A program made the position numbers and the translations under genes. A stretch of 64,000 nt of DNA, from positions 1,860,001-1,924,000 of the forward strand of contig NZ_CP011807.3 of assembly GCF_001029105.3 (NCBI RefSeq). Direction: 5' to 3'. The stretch comes from Pandoraea faecigallinarum (GTDB taxonomy: Bacteria; Pseudomonadota; Gammaproteobacteria; Burkholderiales; Burkholderiaceae). Shown here piece after piece: positions 10,233-12,352 of this stretch (its first letter is position 1; every line of letters begins with the position of its first letter). The notes beneath the pieces were generated by a model. The model was not told the DNA's origin. It worked only from the letters and a program-made list of their open reading frames with translations, and did no database searches.

Positions 10233-10269
10233 GAACGCAAACGCCGGCTCACTCACATGGGAGAATGAA

Positions 10270-10282
10270 ATGAACGCGTCCC
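10270..10282 (+). repeat. Left subterminal inverted repeat of the IS
   Basis: ATGAACGCGTCCC, a perfect 13-bp inverted match to 11674-11686. It lies within a couple of bases of the inferred left border and about 107 bp before the transposase start. Confidence 0.9.
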
Positions 10283-10388
10283 ACCCCGTGACCGAGTGAG
10301 CAAAGGAAGGTGGATCCTCACGGGCCAACGGCATCGATGTGCCCAAAGTGGAAAATACGAAGTTTTCCAAAGCAACCGGAGGATCCGA

Positions 10389-11408
10389 GTGAATTGTACG
10401 GCAGTGGGTGTAGACATCGCGAAAAGTGTGTTCCAAGTGCATTACGTCGATCAGGAAACTGGCGAGATCGTGAACAAGCCGATCAAGCGGGCAAAGTTCC
10501 TTGAGCATTTTGCGAACCGAGCGCCGTGCCTGATCGGGATGGAAGCGTGCGGTGGTGCGCACCACTGGGCCCGGCAACTCGCGAAGCTGGGCCACGAGGT
10601 GAAGCTGATGCCGGGGGAGTTCGTAAAGGCTTTCAACATCAGGAACAAGAGCGATGCGGCTGATGCGAAGGCGATCTGGCTGGCCGTGCAGCAGCCGGGC
10701 AAGCCGGTCGCAGTAAAGACCGAAATGCAGCAAGCCATGCTGGGGCTGCACCGGATGAGACAGCAACTGATCAAATTTCGCACGATGCAGATTAATGCTC
10801 TGCGAGGGCTGCTAACGGAATACGGTGAAGTGATGGGCAAGAGTCGGGCGAAGCTCGATAAGGAAATACCCGCTGTGCTCGAACGGATTGCGGAGCGTTT
10901 GCCTGCCGTGCTGATCGATACGTTTCGCGCGCAGTGGAACGGACTGGAGAAGCTTGATGAGCAGATCGCTGAGATCGAGCGTCGGATGCGCGAGTGGAAG
11001 AAAGAGGATAAGGCGGTCAAGGCCATCAGCGAGATTCCCGGTGTTGGATTACTGACGGCAACAGCAGCTGTCGCGATGATGGGAGATGCGAAAGCGTTCA
11101 GTTCGGGACGAGAGTTTGCCGCGTGGGTTGGGATCGTGCCGAAGCAGACGGGTTCGGGCGGCAAGGTGAACTTGCATGGCATATCAAAGCGCGGCGACAC
11201 ATATCTGCGCACCCTGCTGATTCACGGTGCACGATCTGTGCTGACGCATGCGAAAGAGCCCGGTGAGTGGGTCGAACAAATCCAGAAGCGGCGGCCAAAA
11301 AATGTCGTAATCGTCGCGTTAGCCAACAAGATGGCGCGAACGATCTGGGCAGTTCTTGCCCATGACCGGCAGTACCAGAAGGGATACGTGAGCGTGAAAC
11401 CCGTCTAA
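10389..11408 (+). CDS. IS110-family (IS1111 group) transposase/recombinase
   Basis: The 339-residue protein is of normal length for the family. The N-terminal DEDD RuvC-like domain shows Asp9 (VGVDIAKS), Glu52 (GMEACGG), Asp89 and Asp92 (NKSDAADAKAI). The C-terminal Tnp domain carries the helix-hairpin-helix ISEIPGVGLLTA and the expected catalytic Ser256 (PKQTGSGGK), so all catalytic residues are present. The start is a GTG at 10389 with GGAGG nine bases upstream; the frame remains open further upstream, but those residues do not belong to the domain. Family enzymes are RNA-guided recombinases that move the element without terminal duplications. It looks intact. Confidence 0.93.
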   Translation: MNCTAVGVDIAKSVFQVHYVDQETGEIVNKPIKRAKFLEHFANRAPCLIGMEACGGAHHWARQLAKLGHEVKLMPGEFVKAFNIRNKSDAADAKAIWLAVQQPGKPVAVKTEMQQAMLGLHRMRQQLIKFRTMQINALRGLLTEYGEVMGKSRAKLDKEIPAVLERIAERLPAVLIDTFRAQWNGLEKLDEQIAEIERRMREWKKEDKAVKAISEIPGVGLLTATAAVAMMGDAKAFSSGREFAAWVGIVPKQTGSGGKVNLHGISKRGDTYLRTLLIHGARSVLTHAKEPGEWVEQIQKRRPKNVVIVALANKMARTIWAVLAHDRQYQKGYVSVKPV

Positions 11409-11494
11409 ACGGGCAGCGCTTGCGTAGAGGATTAACGTTTAAACACAGGGTGAACGTCGAAAGGTTGCGCAGCAATCGAGTGTGATGACAAGCC

Positions 11495-11645
11495 AGGTAG
11501 GACCGGGACTCGCTAAACCTGAATGATGCCTCGAGCTTTGAGCTCGCCGGGAGAATGAGGTGCGAGTCAGCGAATTTCATAGGGGCCCGCAGCGACTGTA
11601 CCGACTGCATCGAGGCCGGATATAGAGCTGCAGCCCATCCTGTCT
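11495..11645 (+). ncRNA. Candidate bridge RNA in the 3' end of the IS
   Basis: Downstream of the transposase an outer stem (GACTCGC, 11507-11513, with GCGAGTC, 11562-11568) encloses an internal loop closed by a hairpin (CGAGC/GCTCG, 11532-11536 and 11542-11546). The 5' side of the loop contains ATGATG (11523-11528). The 3' side contains GGGAGAATGA (11549-11558). These match, in the geometry of target guides, the two halves of the insertion site read on the minus strand (ATGATG-TC-ATTCTCCC). A second loop follows: TTCAT (11576-11580) and ATATAGA (11620-11626) flank a GGCC...GGCC hairpin. ATATAGA equals the element's right terminus, as expected for a donor loop. RNA ends are not determined. Confidence 0.72.
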
Positions 11646-11673
11646 ATCAAAACACGCGAAAACTGTTGCAAAC

Positions 11674-11686
11674 GGGACGCGTTCAT
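11674..11686 (-). repeat. Right subterminal inverted repeat of the IS
   Basis: GGGACGCGTTCAT, the exact complement of the left repeat at 10270-10282. It is followed by ATA and the putative GA core, then by the GST start region. Confidence 0.9.
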
Positions 11687-11695
11687 ATAGACATC

Positions 11696-12352
11696 ATGTT
11701 GAAGCTGTACGGCTTTCCAGTCAGCAACTATTACAACAAGGTTAAGGTTGTGCTGTACGAGAAGGGCTTGCCTTTCGAAGAGTCCGAAGCCATTCCCTGC
11801 CAGGACGAGCCGATGCTGCAATGCTCGCCGCTCGGCAAGGTGCCGTATCTGCAAACGGAGAAGGGCTTTCTGGCCGAATCGCAGGTGATCTGCGACTTCC
11901 TCGAAGCGACGCATCCCACGCCAGCACTGTTCTCGGCCGATCCGTGGCGGCAGGCCAAGGAGCGCGAACTGCTCACGATGGTCGAACTGCATCTGGAACT
12001 GGTAGTGCGTGAAGTGTACAAGCAGGCGTTCTTCGGGGGCACGGTGTCGGAAGGCACGCGTGAGCGAACCGAGAAACTGCTGCGTCGTAATATCGTCGCG
12101 TTCAAGCGCATTGCCAGGTTCGCCCCTTATGTTGCGGGCGAGACATTCACGATGGTCGACGTTGCCGCGGGCATTCACTTGCCGATCCTCGGCATGGCCG
12201 CGCAAGCCGTCTATGGCGAAGACTTCCTGAATGCCGAAGGCATCGACTGGAAGGCCTACGGGAAGATGCTCTCGGAGCGCGAATCCTTTCAGCGCATGCG
12301 CGCCGAGCAGAAGGCTTACCAGCAGGCACAGCAAGCGAAGAAAGCGGGATAA
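11696..12352 (+). CDS. Glutathione S-transferase family protein, leader interrupted by IS
   Basis: The 218-residue protein has a thioredoxin-fold N-terminus (KLYGFPVSNYYNKVKVVLYEKGL, split by the CSPLGKVPYLQTEKGFLAESQ cis-Pro and glutathione-binding segment). The helical GST C-terminal domain follows (FAPYVAGETFTMVDVAAG). The ATG at 11696 fits the domain start, but no ribosome binding site precedes it: the sequence immediately upstream is the end of the IS. GGGAGA at 10259-10264, on the far side of the element, would sit 8 bases from this ATG if the element were removed. An in-frame extension back to 11555 is open through the IS end. Translation is therefore probably reduced. Confidence 0.87.
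   Translation: MLKLYGFPVSNYYNKVKVVLYEKGLPFEESEAIPCQDEPMLQCSPLGKVPYLQTEKGFLAESQVICDFLEATHPTPALFSADPWRQAKERELLTMVELHLELVVREVYKQAFFGGTVSEGTRERTEKLLRRNIVAFKRIARFAPYVAGETFTMVDVAAGIHLPILGMAAQAVYGEDFLNAEGIDWKAYGKMLSERESFQRMRAEQKAYQQAQQAKKAG

Follow-up and report, generated by a model that had tools for sequence, protein, structure and literature searches.

An IS1111-group transposon with a bridge RNA that appears to be programmed to translation start sites

The window analysed here (the whole stretch of DNA, 64,000 nt long) is occupied at 10264-11689 by an insertion sequence of the IS1111 group of the IS110 family, and the question raised by this locus is how such an element chooses its insertion site. 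The original prediction held that the loop of a bridge-RNA-like structure in the 3' end of the element spells that site. Both halves of the site were indeed found in the loop, but the prediction had missed that the site is a translation start and not an arbitrary sequence. Very probably, this IS1111-group element has a bridge (seek) RNA whose guides are programmed to the starts of translation.

The element and its sites in the home genome

The element, its parts and the flanking target are as follows.

10264..11689, plus strand: IS1111-group insertion sequence, delimited by uninterrupted sites in relatives and by 9 identical copies
10264..10269, plus strand: left terminal extension AATGAA, missing from uninterrupted sites
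10270..10282, plus strand: left subterminal inverted repeat ATGAACGCGTCCC, a perfect 13-bp inverted match to 11674-11686
10270..10299, plus strand: leader ORF of 9 codons (MNASHPVTE) whose start lies within the inverted repeat, 6 nt past the host GGAG; putative function from sequence and leader-length comparison
10389..11408, plus strand: transposase/recombinase with a GTG start and GGAGG (10378-10382) ahead of it, from Pfam DEDD_Tnp_IS110 and Transposase_20
11674..11686, plus strand: right subterminal inverted repeat GGGACGCGTTCAT, from element copies and the inverted match to the left repeat
11687..11689, plus strand: right terminal extension ATA, with the shared G next to it at 11690, from uninterrupted sites
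10259..10263, plus strand: left target half GGGAG, the Shine-Dalgarno of the downstream glutathione S-transferase gene, with the same bases in uninterrupted sites L154-L158
11691..11698, plus strand: right target half ACATCATG; the interrupted gene starts at ATG 11696-11698, from uninterrupted sites
11696..12352, plus strand: glutathione S-transferase gene (218 aa), separated from its Shine-Dalgarno by the element; Pfam GST_N_3 from residue 4

The transposase (339 aa) scored above the Pfam cut-offs for both DEDD_Tnp_IS110 (51.7 bits) and Transposase_20 (82.3 bits), and the IS621 and ISCro4 proteins with PDB structures are its homologues (E 4e-9 for IS621). The traits of the IS1111 group were present: perfect 13-bp subterminal repeats (group range 7-17 bp) with the short extensions AATGAA and ATA, 265 nt of non-coding DNA between the transposase stop codon and the right inverted repeat, and a target that is not duplicated, since uninterrupted sites show 1 shared base only. 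Pfam domains, repeats, extensions and the 3' non-coding region all agreed with the predicted IS1111-type identity. The end of the element is ambiguous by 1 bp because a G is common to 10263 and 11690. A transposase 99% identical to that of the window is encoded on the Pandoraea vervacti plasmid NZ_CP010898.2. No promoter was found in a scan of 11400-11760; an outward promoter for the cut-off gene is therefore not claimed.

The home genome (5.73 Mb, 3 contigs) contains 9 copies of the element, with 0 differences over 1418 bp. The prediction was to fall if copies with the same loop lay next to other sequences, and this was not the case: all nine have GGAG on the left (GGGAG or AGGAG) and (C/T)(A/G)TCATG on the right. 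The junction and the ATG are separated by 5-6 bases in every copy (GGAG^N5-6-ATG; the spacer of the L006 copy is longer by one base), and an ORF of at least 70 codons opens at this ATG in the orientation of the transposase in 9/9. The genes after six of the copies encode a glutathione S-transferase, an HIUase, a short-chain dehydrogenase, a LysR regulator, a methyltransferase and CsbD; the remaining three copies are followed by two similar plasmid proteins and one long protein, and neither the long protein nor the one plasmid protein tested matched Pfam.

Uninterrupted sites were recovered from relatives for 13 of the 14 sites tried. For the home guide, 7 of 8 queried sites have relatives without the element and L002 has none; this query did not include L008, which nearly duplicates the L009 site. 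The relatives read are a selection of the matches (28 for the home guide, then 21 and 6 more). Those of the home-guide sites keep this anatomy (GGGAG-ACATC-ATG), often with a diverged upstream region but with the Shine-Dalgarno and ATG retained; GGAG is lacking in L164 (site L005). Three other guide pairs in the genus gave uninterrupted relatives for 6/6 sites, 5 of them with a start codon; L030 lies at GGAG^CACCGATAG, without ATG, and GGAG is lacking in L341 and L342 (site L017). At another of these sites, L031, TAAGG followed by the ATG of an 11-codon ORF is kept in 6/6 relatives read (L310, L316, L318-L321); AAGGA is lacking in L310 and L319. The L031 target is conserved across the genus despite differing upstream DNA and perhaps belongs to a leader peptide.

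Free copies of the guide motif GGAGNYRTCATG occur 19 times in the home genome, against 2 for a reversed control. An ORF of at least 60 aa opens at 14 of the 19, compared with about 39% of nearby ATGs (taken from flanks as a yardstick), and some of the free copies fall within long upstream open frames. The target sequence by itself thus has a tendency to lie at gene starts, and sensing of anything beyond it need not be assumed.

The RNA of the right end and its guides

The following features were assigned in the right end.

11507..11513, plus strand: outer stem of the bridge RNA, 5' arm GACTCGC, pairing with 11562-11568, from covariation
11562..11568, plus strand: outer stem, 3' arm GCGAGTC, from covariation
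11518..11520, plus strand: inner 3-bp helix, 5' arm, pairing with 11558-11560; nearly invariant, with no both-side changes
11533..11545, plus strand: inner hairpin between the guides, from covariation analysis
11524..11532, plus strand: guide 1 TGATGCCTC, the complement of the right half of the target as read on the top strand, with the A of the start codon included, from guide-flank comparison
11546..11553, plus strand: guide 2 GCCGGGAG, identical to the left half of the target as read on the top strand and hence pairing with the bottom one, from guide-flank comparison
11554..11558, plus strand: AATGA, which equals the element's own left tip and is constant in most of the clade, from alignment
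11574..11581, plus strand: candidate donor guide ATTTCATA, where TTTCAT/TTCCAT largely tracks ATGAA/ATGGA inverted repeats

The outer stem, the 3-bp inner helix and the hairpin are kept in 48 aligned relatives, with 99.3% of cells paired. Changes on both sides of a pair were found in 24 cells of the stem-loop, compared with 3.9 in shuffles (0 of 500 shuffles reached this number), and slid versions of the stem-loop gave at most 47% paired cells and at most 5 both-side cells. The 7-bp stem that had been read directly from the letters is backed by this covariation; the inner hairpin also exists, with an extent of 11533-11545 in place of 11532-11546. The conserved stem-loop encloses two variable blocks, which is a trait of bridge RNAs and seekRNAs. 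No Rfam family reached its gathering score anywhere in the 64,000-nt window, and the thermodynamic fold of the right end is no more stable than its own shuffles (z -0.96). The covarying sequences confirm the structure of a predicted bridge (seek) RNA in the right end. For the candidate donor guide, CCAT is read in 7 of the 8 ATGGA rows among those listed, and elsewhere in L124 and L125.

The right-hand guide had been noticed as ATGATG complementary to CATCAT in the right flank. This complementarity holds, between 11523-11528 and 11692-11697, which is one base to the left of the flank position first given. On the left, an identity of ten bases had been proposed, and GGGAGAATGA at 11549-11558 does equal bases 10259-10268. 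Only GGGAG among them is target and the other five are the left tip of the element itself, because uninterrupted sites end the target at GGGAG (10263). Within 11409-11686 there is a single GGGAG and a single complement of CATCAT. Some bases of the right half depart from guide 1: T for C at the second base and G for A at the third are compatible with wobble pairing, and A at the first base, against C in the guide (3/9 copies), is not.

Whether guides and sites change together was assessed with 38 distinct guide pairs drawn from 70 rows (12 were dropped for unreadable ends or flanks, and one L117 row was set aside), with repeats of a guide pair counted once. Taking the best of three registers for own and swapped flanks alike, block 2 matched its own left flank at 5.16 of 6 bases and swapped flanks at 1.92, and the complement of block 1 matched its own right flank at 5.05 of 6 and swapped flanks at 2.53. 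The summed match was 388 against a permutation mean of 176 (sd 10.7), and none of 20,000 permutations was as good. The guides are complementary to both target strands and change in step with the site, as in bridge RNAs and seekRNAs. A chance match, judged unlikely in the original prediction, is indeed so, and the co-variation of loop and flanks that it had put forward as a check was seen across the clade. The order of the guides and their polarity, the latter also predicted, are those reported for IS1111 seekRNAs (PMC11187229). One relative, L117, has a tandem of bridge-RNA units, of which the first RNA fits the left flank and the second the far right flank; the arrangement resembles two right ends joined together.

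Translation-start guides across the clade

When 249 genomes sampled from the family were searched with a covariance model of the RNA, at least 77 had a match. The survey covered 161 loci, an uneven sample, of which 79 were found via protein words of this transposase; 60 regions were picked among the stronger places listed from the covariance-model search, and six loci were plasmid matches among 60 listed. Among the 161 loci, 27 had no RNA pattern, 29 were RNA matches without readable ends and 1 had no right flank; the 106 other element rows gave 92 distinct sites, or 91 after the second RNA of L117 was set aside. A further 20 more distant regions were used for distant-relative comparison only. 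The readable set thus comprises 91 distinct insertion sites with 64 distinct guide pairs.

Guides ending in GGAG, GGAGG, AAGGA or AGGGA were found in 18 of the 64 pairs (37 sites), compared with a mean of 4.8 and a maximum of 13 in 5000 sets of column-shuffled guides, under a definition chosen after the list of guides had been seen. Other members of the clade have unrelated targets. An ATG lies 4-8 nt past the junction at 35/37 sites of the Shine-Dalgarno type and at 24/54 others, and an ORF of at least 60 aa opens from this ATG in 30/35 and 8/24 cases, respectively (39% for 705 other flank ATGs). Among 30 downstream proteins of the Shine-Dalgarno class (29 that fit the strict definition, and that of L126), 20 had a Pfam match above cut-off, and 14 of these have a domain that begins no more than 15 residues from the ATG; of the other downstream proteins, 3 of 9 had a match. 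A ParB gene of P. oxalativorans is annotated as starting exactly at the predicted ATG. A looser definition of the Shine-Dalgarno guide gave ORFs of at least 60 aa at 29/45 sites compared with 10/47; it was dropped since AAGG, AGGA or GAGG inside unrelated guides was also caught.

Not all sites of this type are equally clear. The ORF is short in L031 (11 codons), L099 (5), L250 (17), L182 (54) and the second copy in L098 (36), and the 73-codon ORF of L185 overlaps an annotated gene on the opposite strand. The right flanks of L130 and L099 match poorly; they share a start, TGTGCGAC, while their guides differ and neither fits well. At five loci (L107, L098, L182, L126 and L255) the gene whose start codon adjoins the element encodes another IS110-family transposase, as called by Pfam for L107 and L098 and from the first residues only for L182, L126 and L255.

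It could be argued that this is an ordinary bridge-RNA element without a targeting trait, whose gene-start sites are incidental because a constant GAAT in the RNA of the clade favours AT. Guide 1 does mostly start with T after GAA, an ATG is also present at the 24/54 sites of other guides noted above, and the association of Shine-Dalgarno guide with ATG is not significant over 7 independent pairs (on average 3.5 agree, 0 oppose and 3.5 are tied). However, the excess of Shine-Dalgarno endings over shuffled guides (post hoc as their definition is), the Pfam matches in two thirds of the downstream proteins and a label which requires at least 7 changes on the tree speak against it, and we consider this account improbable.

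Far less probable still is wide insertion followed by selection, in which only insertions in the gap between Shine-Dalgarno and start codon survive and no guidance is involved. Insertions outside coding sequence are generally better tolerated, but the guides themselves spell the sites and all nine home copies have the same orientation. In addition, a more distant relative whose guide differs, present in the P. oxalativorans genome in 7 copies (6 with readable ends), uses another site: its copies lie at sequences resembling GACAG^GCGTCA, and only 1/6 has an ATG at the expected place.

On a tree of 57 transposases the Shine-Dalgarno-guide trait requires 10 changes (bootstrap range 9-10), 7 of which are forced by well-supported branches, compared with about 14 changes with shuffled labels. 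Gains and losses are not told apart in these counts, and the tree is unrooted; L126 was omitted for its very long branch, and the trees exclude sites whose transposase is shorter than 280 aa (10 listed). Because the label is clustered on the tree, part of the trait is inherited; the other part has been regained or lost by guide change.

A tentative addition to this reading is that the leader MNASHP... is driven by the Shine-Dalgarno of the host, which insertion brings to 6 nt from the ATG in the inverted repeat, and that translation of the transposase is tuned in this way. The GGAG-AATGAA-ATG spacing fits this idea, and the leader has 6-10 codons in 16/16 elements of the Shine-Dalgarno type, compared with 10 codons or fewer in 15/41 others (Mann-Whitney p 0.0002). 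After correction for kinship about 3 of 7 independent pairs are in favour and 0 opposed (p 0.25), the ATG in the inverted repeat is common throughout the clade, and the transposase has a GGAGG of its own. The host Shine-Dalgarno might start the short leader ORF, but we regard the tuning of translation as rather doubtful.

Proposed mechanism and known systems

The site and the orientation of insertion follow from the anatomy of the locus and the uninterrupted sites. In the proposed mechanism, guide 2 would read the Shine-Dalgarno GGGAG via the bottom strand and guide 1 the spacer and first letters of the start codon via the top strand. As these two stretches spell a ribosome-binding site and a start codon, copies would land between them. 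By analogy with IS621 and seekRNA work, an RNA-held DEDD recombinase would join the circular element between GGAG and ATG in the orientation of the gene. The host gene retains its ATG and loses its Shine-Dalgarno. The transposase lies downstream of the host Shine-Dalgarno and is therefore presumably behind the promoter of the gene as well; the element may profit from these host signals. Within the clade, targeting of translation starts was reached or lost repeatedly through guide change. We lean, with some reserve, towards a more general statement: that RNA-guided transposons have repeatedly evolved guides to the translation initiation region as a whole, a composite of Shine-Dalgarno, spacer and start codon. 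This target would presumably be favoured because it is among the commonest near-invariant short non-coding sequences and fixes the orientation, and insertion would place the element behind the promoter and Shine-Dalgarno of the gene it enters.

If correct, this would be natural evolution of a reprogrammable RNA-guided recombinase, in which guides change fast and a generic target of ribosome-binding site plus start codon is found on several branches. The 64 natural guide pairs with their sites are material for learning pairing rules (wobble, and the one-base longer spacer in 1/9 identical copies), and the borrowing of host expression signals by such elements becomes testable.

Bridge and seek RNAs of IS1111 elements have been described, each IS with its own target (PMC11187229; PMC11208160). 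No paper tying an IS110/IS1111 guide to Shine-Dalgarno sites was found in the literature text searched; a target logo of this kind may exist in the figures or supplements of the seekRNA paper. As far as these searches go, guides that spell Shine-Dalgarno and start codon with the transposase co-oriented with the gene, and a trait gained or lost at least 7 times in one clade, seem to be new.

The element resembles the IS1111-group seekRNA elements ISEc11, ISPa11, ISKpn4 and ISPst6 in recombinase type, subterminal repeats, terminal extensions and downstream non-coding region, and in the order of its two guides, where the one that matches the top strand comes 5' of the one that matches the bottom strand (PMC11187229). 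It differs from them in its target, Shine-Dalgarno plus start codon, and its seekRNA is a predicted one. With the IS110-group bridge RNA of IS621 (PMC11208160; structures 8wt6 and others) it shares a bispecific RNA loop and a homologous recombinase; it departs from IS621 in carrying the RNA at its right end, in its long inverted repeats and in a guide order that is the one of IS1111 members. IS884 of Cupriavidus necator H16, a named relative, has 84% protein identity and the same RNA architecture, but its guides are GGGTAATAC/GCAGTACG and the copy read does not target a translation start.

The closest parallel in target is IS900, an IS110-family element of Mycobacterium avium subsp. paratuberculosis. 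According to the title of a 1997 paper, IS900 reportedly targets translation initiation signals. Its insertion motif is given as CATGNNNNNNTCTCCTT (PMC8141618), and this is the reverse complement of AAGGAGA-N6-CATG, i.e., a Shine-Dalgarno plus CATG. Like the present element, IS900 inserts between Shine-Dalgarno and CATG. From the strand of the motif and the position of hed on the complementary strand, the IS900 transposase seems to have an orientation opposite to that of its target gene, whereas the one described here has the orientation of the gene in 9/9 copies. No bridge-RNA explanation for the site choice of IS900 was given in the portions of the IS900 literature examined. The element described here makes such an explanation available to test for the entry of IS900 into translation initiation signals.
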